Under the pieces are notes generated by a model. It was not told the origin of the DNA. It was given only the letters and a program-made list of their open reading frames with translations, and did not search any database. From NCBI GenBank assembly GCA_030620115.1, contig JAUXFG010000167.1, forward strand, positions 1-7,851: a stretch of 7,851 nt of DNA. Direction: 5' to 3'. The stretch comes from Candidatus Fermentibacterota bacterium. GTDB lineage: Bacteria > JAFGKV01. Made by a program: the position numbers and the translations under genes. Below are positions 1,239-7,346 of this stretch, piece after piece; position 1 is the first letter of the stretch; every line of letters starts with the position of its first letter.

Positions 1239-2351
1239 ATGCGGACTGATCCCCAGAAAACGGTACGCCTCTTCTTTGGCCCGCAACATCCTGGTGTGAC
1301 GGGGAATATGAGCGTGGAGCTCTGGGTGGAAGGAGACGAGGTCACCAAGGGGATTTCGCGGGTCGGCTACCTCCATCGGGGCTTCGAGAAGCTCATGGAG
1401 CGGAGACTGTGGATCCAGAACTTTCCGCTTGTCTGCCGAATGTGCGTACCTGAGACTGACGTCAACGAAGCGTGTTATGCCGAGGCTTTGGAATTGCTGG
1501 CCGGCATCGATGTACCGGTTCGCGCGCGGTGGCTCAGAGCGCTGGTGCTGGAGCTTGCGCGATTGGGCGTGAACCTCATGTCCTTGGGCGGTCAGGGCGG
1601 CACCATAGGATTGGGCACCGCGGCTCAGTGGGGGATCACCTACCGCGACTTTGTGCTGGATCTGTTGGAGGAGCTTTCCGGTGGTCGCATCTATCATATG
1701 TTCATCCTGCCGGGTGGCGTACGGAGAGATATACCCAGCGGCTTTTTCTCTCGAGTGGAGACAGTTCTTGAAACCATAGAGGAGCGCCTTCCGGAATTCG
1801 ACCGATTGCTCTTCGACAATGCGGTCTTTCAAACGCGTACACAAGGCATCGGAGTCATACGGCCTGAATGGGTGGATGAGTTGGGCCTGGTTGGGCCCAT
1901 GGCGCGGGCATGTGGGTTCGCCCGGGATGTACGTCAGGACGATGCCTACGAGATCTACGATCAGCTTGCGTTTGACGTGGTGACCGAAACAGGAGGTGAC
2001 ATCTTCGCCCGTGCGCTGGTTCGGCGACGCGATATTGCGCTTTCCATCGATCTGATACGGCAGATCATGAAGCGCACGCCGGACGGGCCGGTTGCGGTTC
2101 AGCTTCCCAATCTCACAAGGTGGCGGATTCCGGCCGGAGAGGTCTATGCAAAGGTGGAATCCTCACGCGGGGAGTATGGCTACTATGTGGTGAGCGACGG
2201 TGGGCTGCGACCTCGGAGGGTACATGTACGTGGGCCGTCATATGTGCATGGGGTGACGCTTCTGGAACGCATGCTGGTGGGGACGAATATCGCCGATGTG
2301 TCGAATCTCATGGTGAGCCTGACTATCTGTCCTCCGGAGATCGACAGGTAA
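1239..2351 (+). CDS. NuoD-like / group 4 [NiFe]-hydrogenase-related large subunit with CxxE motifs
   Basis: This 370-residue protein is full length for the NuoD/Nqo4/EchE family. Landmarks in order are GPQHPG (14-19), GYLHRGFEKLMERR (43-56), VPVRARWLRALVLELARLG (92-110), PGGVRRDIPSG (158-168), VESSRGEYGYYVVSDGG (306-322) and the terminal EIDR. The quinone- or metal-site segments are unusual. The N-terminal one reads RMCVPET (67-73), where hydrogenases have RxCxxC and complex I has RxDxxH. The C-terminal one reads SLTICPPEIDR (360-370), where hydrogenases have DPCxxCxxR. This leaves Cys69/Glu72 and Cys364/Glu367. A normal [NiFe] centre with four Cys ligands is therefore not expected. The ATG at 1239 follows AGGTAGGAA. 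The next gene starts 3 bases after the TAA, so translation is probably coupled. The protein likely forms the catalytic core of an Ehr/Mbx-type or ancestral complex I-like enzyme; substrate unknown. Confidence 0.92.
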   Translation: MRTDPQKTVRLFFGPQHPGVTGNMSVELWVEGDEVTKGISRVGYLHRGFEKLMERRLWIQNFPLVCRMCVPETDVNEACYAEALELLAGIDVPVRARWLRALVLELARLGVNLMSLGGQGGTIGLGTAAQWGITYRDFVLDLLEELSGGRIYHMFILPGGVRRDIPSGFFSRVETVLETIEERLPEFDRLLFDNAVFQTRTQGIGVIRPEWVDELGLVGPMARACGFARDVRQDDAYEIYDQLAFDVVTETGGDIFARALVRRRDIALSIDLIRQIMKRTPDGPVAVQLPNLTRWRIPAGEVYAKVESSRGEYGYYVVSDGGLRPRRVHVRGPSYVHGVTLLERMLVGTNIADVSNLMVSLTICPPEIDR

Positions 2352-2354
2352 AGC

Positions 2355-4127
2355 ATGAAATTCACCAACATAATCTCACCTTTCCTTGCATGGGGCCGCG
2401 CGGCCAAGAAAGCCGATACAGTTGCATTTCCCTCTGCCGATCGTCCGGGAGCCCCGCGCTACAGAGGGTTCCATATCAACGACTTGGAGAAGTGTATTGG
2501 GTGCGGCCGATGCGAGGAGATCTGCCAGAATGCGGCCCTCGATATGACGCCGACCCCCCTGACGCAGTTCAAAGAAGGAGACACCGGCCTTCGGCCCAGA
2601 GTGGATTACGGACGATGCTGCTGGTGCGCCTTGTGCGTGGATGTCTGTTCCACAGGGTCGTTGGGCATGACGAATGAGTATCTATGGTCCTCAGTTGACG
2701 CCGATGAATTTATCTACACGCCTGGTCTTGAAGCCAAACCATGGGACGATTCATCGCGAGGATATCGGCAAGCGCAGGATATCCTGGGCTGGGCAGGCGG
2801 TGCACGACGGGAGATGCCCGTGCTTCCTCCTGATGAGCGGATCAAGACATTCGACGAAGTCGTCATGGGATTCATCGAAGAGGATGCCGTCGCCGAAGCC
2901 GCCCGGTGTATCCAGTGCGGGCTATGCGTGAGTGCGTGCCCGGCTCACATGCATATCCCGGAGTATCTGCTGGCCATTGCGGAACGACGCTTCCGTGATG
3001 CGGTGGAGATTTTCTATCAGAACAATCCGCTGCCCGAGATGTGCGGCAAGGTCTGTACCAGGCGATGTGAGATGGTCTGCGCCCTTGGCCATCAAGGCGA
3101 GCCTATCGCCATTCGATGGCTGAAGCGTTTCGCTACAGAACGATTTGATTCTCTTGCGGAAGTCATGCGGATGTGGGAGCGAAAAGCGCCAACAGGGAAA
3201 CAGGTGGCGGTGATCGGTGCCGGGCCAGCCGGGCTCACGGCCGCCTACTACCTGGCGTTGGCAGGCCATGATGTGGAGGTGTTCGATGCCGACCGCAAAG
3301 GTGGCGGGGTTACCCGTTCCGGAATCCCCATGTATCGGCTGCCGGATCAGTCATTGGACAAGCAGATGGAAGTGTTCAAGAATGCGGGCGTTACCCTGCG
3401 GTTCGGCCAGACAATCGACCAATCGCGTTTCGTCTCGCTCTGTTCGGATTTTGATGCCGTGTTCATCGCGGTGGGCCTCACCGGGGCCTTGAGATTGCGT
3501 ATTGAAGGCGAGGATCTTGGGGGAGTCGAATCGGCGTTGGACCTGCTTGCACGAGTCAATCTGGAGGACGATGCCTCGCCGGTCGGTGAGCGCGTGGTGG
3601 TGATCGGGGGAGGCAATGTGGCCATGGATGCGTCCCGGGTTGCCCGGAGGTTGGGTGCTCAAGTCGTACTCTCGTATCGGCGGCGCGTTCAGGACATGCC
3701 TGCCGACGATGAGGAGATTGAGGAAGCAAAGGAAGAAGGGATCGAGTTCAGGACACAGACCATACCGCTGAGAATCGAATCGCGCGGATCAAAGCTCCTG
3801 TATCTGTATGGTAACGCGGAGATGATTCCCGATCAAAAAGGCGGACGCCCGAGACCGCGGTTGATGGAGGGCACGGAGCACGAGTTGGAGGTTGACCGTG
3901 TGTTTGTGGCTGTCGGGCAAGCCCCGGATCTTGGATTCCTGCCAAAGGAAATCTCGGATCAACTCAAGGTCGACTGGGGCAAGATCGTCGTGGATGCAGA
4001 TCAGTTCACCGGAGTTCCCGGCATCTTCGCCGGGGGAGACATCACCCCCGGTCGTGACGACGCCATCTCCGCCATTGCAGATGGCCTCCGCGCAGTACGA
4101 GGAATCCGTCGGCTCCTGGAGGGTTAG
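2355..4127 (+). CDS. NuoI-like ferredoxin fused to a GltD/NfnB-type FAD-NAD(P) oxidoreductase
   Basis: A 590-residue two-part protein. The N-terminal NuoI-like part has two 4Fe-4S motifs: CIGCGRCEEIC (Cys47, 50, 53, 57) and CCWCALCVDVC (Cys88, 91, 94, 98). A linker of about 80 residues follows. The GltD-like part starts with RCIQCGLCVSACPAHMHIP (Cys185, 188, 191, 195) and NPLPEMCGKVCTRRCEMVC (Cys230, 234, 238, 242), the cluster-binding segment of glutamate synthase small subunit and NfnB relatives. Then come the FAD fold VAVIGAGPAG (284-293), the NAD(P) fold VVVIGGGNVAMD (414-425) with YRRR (441-444) favouring NADPH, and the closing FAD motif IFAGGDITPG (557-566). It has no membrane segment. 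Following nuoC- and nuoD-like genes, it probably carries electrons between a pyridine nucleotide and the NuoD-like site through a cluster chain, replacing the NuoEFG module. It is not a glutamate synthase gene: no gltB is adjacent. The direction of electron flow is unknown. Confidence 0.92.
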   Translation: MKFTNIISPFLAWGRAAKKADTVAFPSADRPGAPRYRGFHINDLEKCIGCGRCEEICQNAALDMTPTPLTQFKEGDTGLRPRVDYGRCCWCALCVDVCSTGSLGMTNEYLWSSVDADEFIYTPGLEAKPWDDSSRGYRQAQDILGWAGGARREMPVLPPDERIKTFDEVVMGFIEEDAVAEAARCIQCGLCVSACPAHMHIPEYLLAIAERRFRDAVEIFYQNNPLPEMCGKVCTRRCEMVCALGHQGEPIAIRWLKRFATERFDSLAEVMRMWERKAPTGKQVAVIGAGPAGLTAAYYLALAGHDVEVFDADRKGGGVTRSGIPMYRLPDQSLDKQMEVFKNAGVTLRFGQTIDQSRFVSLCSDFDAVFIAVGLTGALRLRIEGEDLGGVESALDLLARVNLEDDASPVGERVVVIGGGNVAMDASRVARRLGAQVVLSYRRRVQDMPADDEEIEEAKEEGIEFRTQTIPLRIESRGSKLLYLYGNAEMIPDQKGGRPRPRLMEGTEHELEVDRVFVAVGQAPDLGFLPKEISDQLKVDWGKIVVDADQFTGVPGIFAGGDITPGRDDAISAIADGLRAVRGIRRLLEG

Positions 4128-4393: not shown

Positions 4394-4510
4394 AGATTCT
4401 TCGCTTCTTTCAGTCGCTCAGAATGACAGTGGTAGCGTGTAGAAGGATGTGATTTCATGTGTCATTCTGCGGAAGCGGAGCGACCGAGGAATCTGGGTGG
4501 GAGGATGGGG
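4394..4510. repeat. 117-bp composite palindromic repeat, copy 2
   Basis: Same length, orientation and internal order as 262-378: an inverted pair of the AGATTCTTC...CAGAATGACA / TGTCATTCTG...GAATCT motif around a GTGGTAGCGT...AAGGATGTGA spacer, then a GGATGGGG tail. Its left border GAGGAGAGATTCTTC is continuous, whereas in copy 1 this point is interrupted by the 162-262 element. It therefore serves as the empty-site reference. Confidence 0.85.
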
Positions 4511-4666: not shown

Positions 4667-4752
4667 TGGTGCGAGAGAGGGGACTCGAACCCCTACCCCT
4701 TGCGGGACTGGATCCTAAGTCCAGCGCGTCTACCAAATTCCGCCACTCTCGC
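4667..4752 (-). tRNA. tRNA-Leu (anticodon UAG), CCA encoded
   Basis: On the minus strand the acceptor stem GCGAGAG (5' end at 4752) pairs with CTCTCGC, followed by discriminator A and an encoded CCA. The D-arm region contains GGTAGACGC. The anticodon arm is CTGGA-CTTAGGA-TCCAG, with TAG at positions 34-36 and T33 before it. A long variable arm (TCCCGCAAGGGGT) identifies the type II tRNA expected for leucine. The T arm is GGGG-TTCGAGT-CCCC. The length of 86 nt including CCA fits. It reads codon CUA and, with U34 wobble, other CUN codons. It lies 101 bases downstream of mtnA on the same strand and could be transcribed from its own promoter or by read-through. Confidence 0.97.
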
Positions 4753-4853: not shown

Positions 4854-5879
4854 CTACGATGTCAACGTTGCATCATACGGAGGCCGGTGGACTCCATCTT
4901 CCGTGATAATCGCCGAGATAAGTGAGTTTGGAGTTACGTCGAATGCAGGATTAAATACGTCCACGCCATGGGGAGCGATCTGTTTCCCGGCAAGATGTGT
5001 CACCTCATGTGGCGAACGCTCTTCAATGGGGATGCTTTCCCCCGAGGAAATTGCGAAATCCACGGTTGACTTCGGCGCCGCTATGTAGAATGGTATCCCA
5101 AAATGATTGGCCAGTACGGCCAGACCAAGTGTCCCGATCTTGTTTGCCGCGTCGCCATTGGCCGCGATCCGGTCTGCTCCAGTGATGACCAAATCCACCC
5201 TGCCACTCGCCATTACCGTAGCCGCCATATCGTCGCAGATCAGCGTCACCGGAATGCCTGCCTCCTTCAGTTCCCACGTCGTCAATCGAGCTCCCTGGAG
5301 GAGCGGACGAGTCTCGTCGGCCCAGACATGGACCGTCTTGCCTTGCTCGTGAGCCACGTAGATCGCGGCAAGAGCGGTGCCATAGTCGGCTGTGGCAAGA
5401 TACCCTGCATTGCAGTGGGTCAGCACATGACAAGAGTCAGGTAACAAAGTGGCCCCGTGTTCTCCGAGCGCGCGACAAATGCCGGTATCCTCTACTACCA
5501 TCTCGAGCGCCTCATTCACCACCGCTTGTCGAAGCTCATCAGTCGATATGTCAGGCAAACACCAGATACTCCTCATGCGTTCTATGGCCCAAAACAGATT
5601 GACGGCAGTGGGGCGGGTGGCGGCGAGAACCGAAGCGGTCTCCTCCAGATCCTCGATCAATGCCTCTCGATTCGATGAGTCGTTCTTGCCGGCCTTGAGT
5701 GCTATCCCGAGGGCGGCAGCCAGACCTATTGCCGGCGCGCCACGAACCCGAAGGGATTTGATGGCCTCGGCCAAGGTATCGATGTCTTCGCATCGGAGAT
5801 ATTTCACTTCATGCGGAAGCAGCGTTTGATCGAGAAGCTCTACCGCTCCATCAACCCAACGCAGGGTTGGTTTTCTCAT
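4854..5879 (-). CDS. mtnA: S-methyl-5-thioribose-1-phosphate isomerase (MtnA)
   Basis: This 341-residue cytoplasmic enzyme is full length for the MtnA/eIF2B-alpha-like family. It converts 5-methylthioribose 1-phosphate to 5-methylthioribulose 1-phosphate in salvage of the methylthio group from methylthioadenosine (methionine salvage or related shunts). Signatures are RVRGAPAIG (44-52), THCNAG (154-159) with catalytic Cys156, ADETRPLLQGARLT (187-200), GADRIAANGDAANKIGT (234-250) with catalytic Asp236, and NPAFDVTP (310-317). Cys156 and Asp236 correspond to the catalytic pair described for the Bacillus enzyme (Cys160/Asp240). The ATG at 5879 starts one base after the yjbQ stop, and GAGAAG in the end of yjbQ can serve as its ribosome binding site, so translation is probably coupled. 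No other methionine-salvage gene lies in the window, so the local pathway cannot be resolved. Confidence 0.97.
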   Translation of the reverse strand: MRKPTLRWVDGAVELLDQTLLPHEVKYLRCEDIDTLAEAIKSLRVRGAPAIGLAAALGIALKAGKNDSSNREALIEDLEETASVLAATRPTAVNLFWAIERMRSIWCLPDISTDELRQAVVNEALEMVVEDTGICRALGEHGATLLPDSCHVLTHCNAGYLATADYGTALAAIYVAHEQGKTVHVWADETRPLLQGARLTTWELKEAGIPVTLICDDMAATVMASGRVDLVITGADRIAANGDAANKIGTLGLAVLANHFGIPFYIAAPKSTVDFAISSGESIPIEERSPHEVTHLAGKQIAPHGVDVFNPAFDVTPNSLISAIITEDGVHRPPYDATLTS

Positions 5880-5880
5880 A

Positions 5881-6300
5881 CTACTTCTCGCCCATCAGCG
5901 TGACAATGACTCTGCGCTGCCTGGATCGGTTATCGAAATCCAAAAAAACGATTTGCTGCCATGTTCCCCTCACCAATTTGCCGTTGACAATGGGCACCGT
6001 GAGTGATGGACCGAACATGCTCGCTCTCAGATGGGAATGCCCGTTGCCGTCTCCCCAGGTCATGTTGTGAGCCCAGTCCCGATTTTTTGGAACCAATTCG
6101 TCAAGCAAGACCTTCAGGTCGCGTACCAGGGCATCTTCGTACTCGATGGTGGTCAAGGCTCCGGTAGATCCCGGAACGAATAGGTTGACCATACCGGATC
6201 TTAGGTCTGTCTCGCGAACGAGGGTCTCGACCTTGCCGGTTATGTCAATGACGTCCGTGTCACCGGAGGTGGCGAACTCAATCTCTGCATGCTGAATCAT
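5881..6300 (-). CDS. yjbQ: YjbQ family protein (UPF0047; secondary thiamine-phosphate synthase-like)
   Basis: From the ATG at 6300 the protein has 139 residues, the usual YjbQ length. The conserved core is GSTGALTTIEYEDALVRDL (44-62), HNMTWGDGNGHSHLRASMFG (78-97) and GTWQQIVFLDFDNRSRQRRV (112-131). The His and Asp residues in the HN...WGDGNGHSH block are the likely metal or catalytic site. E. coli YjbQ has a weak thiamine-phosphate synthase side activity, but the true cellular role of the family is unsettled. An upstream TTG at 6363 would add 21 residues outside the family. The ATG at 6300 has AGGGAG immediately before it, though only 3 bases away, and is preferred. It is the first gene of a two-gene unit with mtnA. 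Confidence 0.93.
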   Translation of the reverse strand: MIQHAEIEFATSGDTDVIDITGKVETLVRETDLRSGMVNLFVPGSTGALTTIEYEDALVRDLKVLLDELVPKNRDWAHNMTWGDGNGHSHLRASMFGPSLTVPIVNGKLVRGTWQQIVFLDFDNRSRQRRVIVTLMGEK

Positions 6301-6362
6301 TTGCTCCCTGCTCTCTGGAAATCCCACTAGGTCGGGCGTGAGTTTCGATTGGAGAGTCGACA

Positions 6363-6391
6363 AGATTACGATGAATCGCCGAAGCTTTCAA
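6363..6391 (-). promoter_or_regulatory. Candidate sigma70-like promoter for yjbQ-mtnA
   Basis: On the minus strand TTGAAA (6391-6386) is followed after exactly 17 bases by TAATCT (6368-6363). The -35 matches consensus at 5 of 6 positions; the -10 is weak (3 of 6). The yjbQ ATG lies 62 bases further on. It is the best spaced pair seen upstream of the unit, but could occur by chance. Confidence 0.35.
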
Positions 6392-6771: not shown

Positions 6772-7116
6772 TCAGCGACCTAGCACGACGTCGATGCCGG
6801 ATAGCACAAGTTCTACCTTGGCGTCGGGCAGCTTACCAACCCGTTCCGTGAGCAAGGATTTATCCAAAGACACCAATTGCGACACGTTTGCAACGGAATC
6901 CTTAGGAAGACCTGTCATCCGATGCTGCAACAACACATTCCCTGGAGCGTCGGCCCACTTCAAATTGCTGGTGAGGGGAACACATACAACCGTTCCGATC
7001 TTACTGCGGTTCACGGCGTCTCCTTGCACCATAATCACTGGGCGTCGGAATCCCGGTCCGGAGCCTGTTGGTTCGGGAAGTTCTGCCCACCAGACTTCGC
7101 CCTGGCAAATCACCAC
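6772..7116 (-). CDS. MazF/PemK-family endoribonuclease toxin
   Basis: This 114-residue protein has the whole MazF fold. It opens with GEVWWAELPEPTGSGPGFRRP (residues 6-26), continues with VVCVPLTSNL (43-52), PGNVLL (58-63) and TGLPKDSVANVSQ (68-80), and ends with a C-terminal helix. Arg25 and Thr49 match the positions of the catalytic Arg/Thr pair of MazF-type mRNA interferases, so it is probably active and cuts RNA at short single-stranded sequences. The start is GTG at 7116 (or GTG at 7113), overlapping the end of the antitoxin gene by 7 (or 4) bases. The two genes are therefore translated together, as is usual for toxin-antitoxin pairs. The cleavage sequence cannot be inferred. Confidence 0.93.
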   Translation of the reverse strand: MVICQGEVWWAELPEPTGSGPGFRRPVIMVQGDAVNRSKIGTVVCVPLTSNLKWADAPGNVLLQHRMTGLPKDSVANVSQLVSLDKSLLTERVGKLPDAKVELVLSGIDVVLGR

Positions 7117-7346
7117 TCAGTTTGCTCCAAGACCCGCCTGGAGGCTGATGATACGAATGTATCAGTCGTTACCCCGAGTTCATCAATCGCGCGGTTCATC
7201 GCCTCCGTGATCTCATCTGGGGCGTGTCTCGCCACGTACTCGCGGAGCGCCTCGCTGAAAAGCCGGCTACGCGATTTCCTCGTTCTTCGCGCCAGTCGCT
7301 CGGCTTTCTCAAAAATGTCATCTGGAATTGATATTGCAGTTTTCAT
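7110..7346 (-). CDS. Ribbon-helix-helix antitoxin (MazE/CopG-like)
   Basis: A 78-residue protein. The N-terminus KTAISIPDDIFEKAERLAR forms the DNA-contacting strand and first helix of a ribbon-helix-helix domain. RKSRSRLFSEALREYVARH completes the second helix. Residues after about 45 (DEITEAMNRAIDELG onward) should be the flexible region that binds and neutralises the toxin. It precedes and overlaps the MazF gene on the same strand, the classic order, and would bind its own promoter for autoregulation. The ATG at 7346 has no Shine-Dalgarno sequence but lies just after a strong -10 element. Confidence 0.9.
   Translation of the reverse strand: MKTAISIPDDIFEKAERLARRTRKSRSRLFSEALREYVARHAPDEITEAMNRAIDELGVTTDTFVSSASRRVLEQTEW

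Follow-up and report, generated by a model that had tools for sequence, protein, structure and literature searches.

Positions 1239 to 2351 of the DNA analysed here encode a NuoD-like protein that, as judged from its sequence and by analogy with the P. furiosus enzyme, probably serves as the large subunit, of the MbsL/MbxL type, in a bacterial membrane-bound MBS/MBX complex, an ion-pumping sulfane-sulfur reductase. By sequence comparison, the CxxE/CxxE pattern that the protein carries at the places of the [NiFe] ligands is a family signature of MBS/MBX large subunits, and not a new site.

The NuoD-like subunit and its operon

The window, i.e., the whole stretch of DNA that was analysed (7,851 nucleotides), is the entire contig C210 of a 4.1 Mb genome that is 98% complete. 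It contains the following features:

1–600, no strand: dispersed-repeat stretch between NuoC and the upstream part of the operon (32-bp exact overlap with the end of contig C183)
640–1200, plus strand: NuoC-like subunit, MbsK homologue (Pfam Complex1_30kDa, 1.4e-20; start uncertain)
1239–2351, plus strand: NuoD-like subunit, MbsL/MbxL homologue, 370 aa, with CxxE/CxxE (ORF, profile matches, 6u8y_L, clade support)
1434–1454, plus strand: L1 motif C66-R-M-C69-V-P-E72 (sequence and alignment of relatives)
2328–2348, plus strand: L2 motif C364-P-P-E367-I-D-R370, the C-terminal end of the NuoD-like protein (sequence and alignment)
2355–4127, plus strand: NuoI::GltD fusion, 590 aa, last gene of the operon (profile and structure matches)
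4667–4752, minus strand: tRNA-Leu
4854–5879, minus strand: MtnA, methylthioribose-1-phosphate isomerase (profile match)
5881–6363, minus strand: YjbQ/UPF0047 protein (profile match)
6772–7116, minus strand: PemK/MazF-like toxin gene (profile match)
7110–7346, minus strand: antitoxin-looking 78-aa ORF, overlapping and preceding the toxin gene

The NuoD-like ORF is intact, matches Pfam Complex1_49kDa (3e-70) and NCBIfam PRK06075 (9.8e-123) in profile searches, and has its nearest named relatives in Candidatus Fermentibacterota. The four residues singled out by the first-pass annotation are all read directly from its codons, namely Cys69 (1443–1445), Glu72 (1452–1454), Cys364 (2328–2330) and Glu367 (2337–2339). 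In [NiFe] hydrogenase structures, the first cysteine of each CxxC motif binds Ni terminally and the second bridges Ni and Fe; by analogy with these structures, we take Cys69 to occupy a terminal-ligand position and Glu72 a bridging-ligand position. That the four residues stand at hydrogenase ligand positions, as the same annotation had it, is borne out by an alignment of 88 relatives, in which the six group 4-type hydrogenases all have CCCC in the four columns, and the columns sit in gap-free segments that include the invariant residues Arg67 and Arg370. The protein itself has no hydrogenase CxxC in L1 or L2, with CxxE at both.

A third nearby cysteine, Cys66 (codon 1434–1436), is kept in 16 of 32 non-redundant relatives. 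The other register, with Cys66-x-x-Cys69 as the first CxxC, is ruled out, because the invariant Arg67 and the ungapped flanks put Cys69 at the first ligand column; it is also countered by position 66 itself, where half of the non-redundant set has Pro, Ile, Leu or Val.

Contig C183 (L078) holds the upstream part of the operon and ends in NuoB followed by 32 bases identical to positions 1–32 of the window. Joined by this 32-bp overlap, which falls in a dispersed repeat, the two contigs give the order MnhE-MnhF-MnhG-MbhD-MnhB/MbhE-MnhC-double antiporter-NuoH-NuoB, then about 0.65 kb that is largely dispersed-repeat sequence, then NuoC-NuoD-NuoI::GltD. C183 contributes MnhE, MnhF and MnhG, MbhD, MnhB with MbhE, an MnhC-like subunit, NuoH, and a 986-aa protein with two antiporter matches. 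Across the join, the NuoD-like gene is accompanied, as in MBS/MBX, by an Mrp-type antiporter module with two antiporter-like units and a NuoH-like anchor. The repeat interrupts the MBX operon after NuoB and before NuoC; its core, GTCATTCTGAGGGAGCAG..CGAAGAATCTGGG, occurs 11 times in exact form across the genome, and this accounts for the break between contigs C183 and C210. A diverged copy lies near position 4445 of the window. The NuoB–NuoC spacing is much shorter in close relatives than across the join. The NuoC frame is open upstream from ATG 325 through the repeat stretch, whereas the NuoC of relatives starts shortly after NuoB, and the native start is uncertain because the ORF opens inside repeat sequence. 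As far as contigs reach, the order Mnh/Mrp-NuoH-B-C-D-NuoI::GltD is kept in about 45 loci from at least 8 phyla.

The last gene of the operon comprises a two-cluster NuoI/MbsN-like ferredoxin domain (residues ~6–117; 6u8y_N, 3.2e-22) and an NfnL/GltD-like FAD/NAD(P)H oxidoreductase (residues ~158–588; NfnI alpha 5jca_L, 2.6e-80), and matches PRK13984 at 9e-173, under that model's cut-off. The fusion is found in bacterial members, and two Thermoplasmatota loci match the NuoI part only. The antiporters are fused, as single ORFs of ~980–1120 codons, in the Fermentibacterota, Acidobacteriota, Spirochaetales, Thiogranum and Bacteroidales relatives checked, and are separate ORFs in WOR-3, Thermotogota, Halanaerobiales, Thermoplasmatota and a deeper Spirochaetota relative (L042).

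We note that tRNA-Leu, MtnA and YjbQ/UPF0047 are ordinary genes with no relation to the MBX operon. Elsewhere in the genome, contig C272 carries a group 3b-type sulfhydrogenase operon (L079, 3243–7165) with intact RICGIC and DPCISC motifs, which is the genome's one true [NiFe] hydrogenase.

Conservation of the four ligand positions

A genome scan yielded 52 relatives of the NuoD-like protein. In a maximum-likelihood tree of 88 sequences, 55 form one clade with PfMbsL (support 100/100), in agreement with the earlier placement of the protein among non-hydrogenase relatives of group 4 hydrogenases that have partially lost the Cys ligands, of the Mbx type. The best solved-structure match is chain L of P. 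furiosus MBS (6u8y_L, 1.8e-105, residues 7–370), whose first site is RICVPEPDV and whose C-terminal motif is NCPPDIDR, i.e., CxxE plus CxxD, with Cys at 85 and 385. The paired pattern, once taken to be undescribed, therefore has a precedent in P. furiosus MbsL (CVPE/CPPD), and it is already published that P. furiosus MBS keeps two of the four NiFe cysteines, C85 and C385 (PMC7684303).

Within the clade, position 72 is acidic in all 55 members (Glu in 49, Asp in 6), and position 367 in all 54 readable rows (46 Glu and 8 Asp, one row being incomplete there). Cys69 is kept in 53 of the 55, the other two (L019 and L027) having Ala, and Cys364 in 42 of 54, with Tyr in the remaining 12, which come from Spirochaetota, Pseudomonadota (Thiocapsa, Thiorhodovibrio, Siculibacillus and others) and Cloacimonadota. 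The acids at 72 and 367 are under stricter conservation than the cysteines at 69 and 364. Free variation of the Cys or Glu positions among homologues, which the first-pass annotation had named as evidence against its proposal, is found in part for the cysteines and not at all for the acids. CECE occurs in 34 of the 55 members and Glu/Asp-swapped forms in 8 more; the full set (CECE, CDCD or CECD) covers 42 rows, among them every one of the 14 in the Fermentibacterota-type clade to which the window belongs. The pattern, kept in these forms across the clade, is not due to chance.

In evolutionary terms, the replacement is not the symmetrical one that had been supposed. The complex I-type NuoD sequences (26 in the alignment) read D/E, A/S/I, V/I/T and D/E at positions 69, 72, 364 and 367, with one exception, and Asp or Glu at 367 is universal among them (26/26), whereas Glu or Asp at 72 is nearly confined to the MBS/MBX clade. 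Since the acid at 367 is common to complex I NuoD, only the acid at 72 is special to the clade, L063 aside.

L063 (G012:C1:1181393-1182472), the single case outside the clade, is a NuoD-like protein on a long branch that reads RICFMDD and CHGDIDR (CxxD/CxxD), and is possibly an independent or intermediate case. We also note that the Fermentibacterota genomes of L005, L007 and L008 (L131–L133, L142) contain a second MBX large subunit, which is CECE and 51–53% identical to that of the window, and that one of them has a third, a paralogue fragment (L142) with Asn at 69 and Glu72 kept. Asn23, Glu77 and Tyr152-His153 are invariant, and Asp74 nearly invariant, in the MBS/MBX clade and not in complex I or hydrogenases; these residues are other candidates for a family-specific function.

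Proposed mechanism and alternative readings

An AlphaFold model of the NuoD-like protein built with 40 sequences (pLDDT 89, pTM 0.90; residues 365–370, including E367, below 50) superimposes in a fold comparison (VIA-align) on complex I NuoD/Nqo4 and 49-kDa subunits, with Z ~46 and rmsd ~2 Å over ~357 residues; among the 50 fold matches listed, complex I fills the rows and MbsL of 6u8y is absent. From the homology with the hydrogenase site, and from the published C85/C385 pair located ~12 Å from the MBS proximal cluster (PMC7684303), the four positions would be expected to converge.

The quinone-headgroup residues H38 and Y87 of Nqo4 are replaced in the alignment by T21 and V70. The NuoB partner reads YGTGCGAIE, as against FCTGCGGIE in MbsJ, CC in complex I and the longer CxxCxGCD-type motif of hydrogenases, so that the complex I set of a quinone His and Tyr in NuoD and adjacent CC in NuoB becomes T21, V70 and GTGC. 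With neither CC nor CxxCxGCD, its shortened motif matches the three-Cys cluster of MBS/MBX. The equivalent of MbsJ Cys25 is gone (Gly) and the other two cluster cysteines remain; the proximal cluster would then find Cys at only three of the usual ligand positions. GTGC is found at 29 loci and CTGC, as in MbsJ, at 13, while six NuoB sequences, fragments or frameshifted genes among them, fall outside either pattern. Catalysis in P. furiosus MBS takes place at the proximal [4Fe-4S] cluster of MbsJ itself, which is held by only three cysteines; removing its unique iron abolishes activity, and both the MbsJ C25A and the MbsL C85A/C385A mutants are active, the latter equalling wild type in the published assay (PMC7684303).

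Modelled on that enzyme, the complex would comprise an Mrp antiporter-like ion pump (MnhE, MnhF, MnhG, MbhD, MnhB with MbhE, MnhC and the fused double antiporter), the NuoH anchor and the NuoB/C/D/I arm. The NuoI::GltD fusion as last gene suggests NAD(P)H, or ferredoxin, as the electron source: electrons would enter from NAD(P)H through FAD, or from ferredoxin into the NuoI clusters, and pass along the [4Fe-4S] chain to the proximal cluster in NuoB, whose open iron would reduce a sulfane-sulfur substrate, e.g., polysulfide, in the emptied [NiFe] chamber of NuoB, NuoD and NuoH. Sulfur reduction would be coupled to ion pumping by the Mrp-type pump, in keeping with the MBS/MBX family, in which polysulfide or sulfane-sulfur reduction drives Na+ pumping. 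A role with sulfur compounds, one of those offered by the first-pass annotation, is plausible for a protein that belongs with MBS/MBX, and the T. maritima mbx operon is induced by S0 (PMC9431562). The CxxE/CxxE pattern would be a remnant of the [NiFe] ligand set, with both terminal cysteines kept and both bridging positions occupied by carboxylates. These carboxylates would most likely shape and charge-balance the chamber wall, possibly paired with the invariant Arg, rather than bind metal, and Cys69 and Cys364 would be dispensable. The invariance of both acids could also reflect a more active role, e.g., proton relay or weak metal binding.

Descent of all four positions from the [NiFe] ligand set, together with the 42 of 55 rows that keep CECE, CDCD or CECD (all 14 Fermentibacterota-type rows among them), would suit a retained mononuclear metal site, whether catalytic or structural, formed by Cys69, Glu72, Cys364 and Glu367 in the CECE/CDCD lineages at least. 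However, position 364 is Tyr in 12 rows and position 69 is Ala in 2, the C85A/C385A variant of MBS still acts on dimethyltrisulfide, and apart from the [4Fe-4S] clusters no metal is described at the C85/C385 place in the text of the structure paper (PMC7684303). The natural variation of the cysteines and the active double mutant disfavour a required 2Cys/2Glu metal or thiol site, as had been put forward, and we consider metal binding by the four residues highly improbable. The GltD/NfnL-type NAD(P)H domain joined to NuoI could instead be the NAD(P)H end of an ion-pumping NAD(P)H:quinone or ferredoxin:NAD(P)+ oxidoreductase, complex I-like or Rnf-like, that is not a sulfur reductase. This is the only complex I-like pump found in the genome, which has one NuoD-family protein, one NuoH and no ordinary complex I found, and a ferredoxin:NADP oxidoreductase was once proposed for archaeal Mbx, as quoted in PMC6349859. 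Such an enzyme is nonetheless unlikely: the complex I headgroup residues are missing (T21, V70), NuoB has GTGC and not CC, and a pure Fd:NAD(P)+ reaction would have no obvious need for a conserved chamber and proximal cluster.

Two of the four ligands are missing, and related complexes are apparently annotated as group 4g H2-evolving hydrogenase (PMC8542988), as might be expected if the protein were a degraded, non-functional [NiFe] hydrogenase or a sequencing artefact. To this we assign practically no probability: the ORF is intact, the operon is conserved, the pattern is strongly kept in 55 relatives spread over many phyla, and the genome has a true hydrogenase, with its CxxC motifs intact, at another locus. 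Conservation across many phyla and the separate group 3b enzyme on C272 rule out a degraded hydrogenase. Returning to the MBS/MBX assignment, two features set the complex apart from P. furiosus MBS, the GltD fusion and the lack of MbsJ Cys25, and donor and acceptor could therefore differ as well. It is conceivable, though doubtful, that E72 and E367 functionally replace the bridging cysteines under stronger selection and, with a bacteria-specific three-Cys cluster (C25 lost) and the NAD(P)H-linked GltD fusion, mark a new subtype, an ion-pumping NAD(P)H-dependent sulfur (or other) reductase.

Relatives that have lost one or the other cysteine but neither acid are in line, as independent evidence, with the published C85A/C385A result, and single out Glu72 and Glu367 as residues of interest; the P. 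furiosus counterparts, E88 and D388, are not mentioned by number in the main text of the structure paper (PMC7684303). The CxxE/CxxE motif also provides a simple guard against labelling such complexes in metagenome bins as H2-evolving group 4g hydrogenases. The Stygibacter frigidus genome has been described with such a hydrogenase (PMC8542988), and the only NuoD-family gene detected in it encodes a CEYE protein of the MBS/MBX clade; the group 4g annotation is therefore doubtful, although the incompleteness of this MAG calls for caution.

Comparison with known systems

Like P. furiosus MBS (6U8Y), its full-length best match, the NuoD-like protein has CVPE as its first motif, keeps the first Cys of each pair and lacks the other two, and carries an acid at the fourth ligand position; the two complexes also share Mrp-type antiporter subunits, the absence of the quinone residues and the three-Cys proximal cluster motif. 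Unlike P. furiosus MBS, the window has Glu and not Asp at the last position, its NuoB has Gly in place of C25, NuoI carries a fused GltD/NfnL-type FAD/NAD(P)H domain, and the H and H' antiporters are fused into 986 aa. Among bacterial MBX of the Thermotoga maritima kind, Thermotogota L035 and L036 share the gene order (as far as contigs reach), CECE and the NuoI::GltD fusion, but keep CTGC in NuoB, are ~50% identical and, in L036, have separate antiporters.

Complex I NuoD/Nqo4 has the same fold and the acid at 367, but Asp/Glu at 69, Ala/Ser/Ile at 72, Val/Ile/Thr at 364 and the conserved quinone His and Tyr. The group 4 [NiFe] hydrogenases (Mbh/Ech/Hyc) share overall homology and the operon plan, but have all four Cys ligands, whereas the window has two of the four. 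MBS/MBX is already known in archaea and Thermotoga (PMC7684303, PMC9431562), and, compared with MBS, the GltD fusion and the missing MbsJ Cys25 amount to modest variations. What is new here, judged by sequence, is a bacterial member of this known family, in a subclade with Cys25 loss, antiporter fusion and NuoI::GltD fusion.
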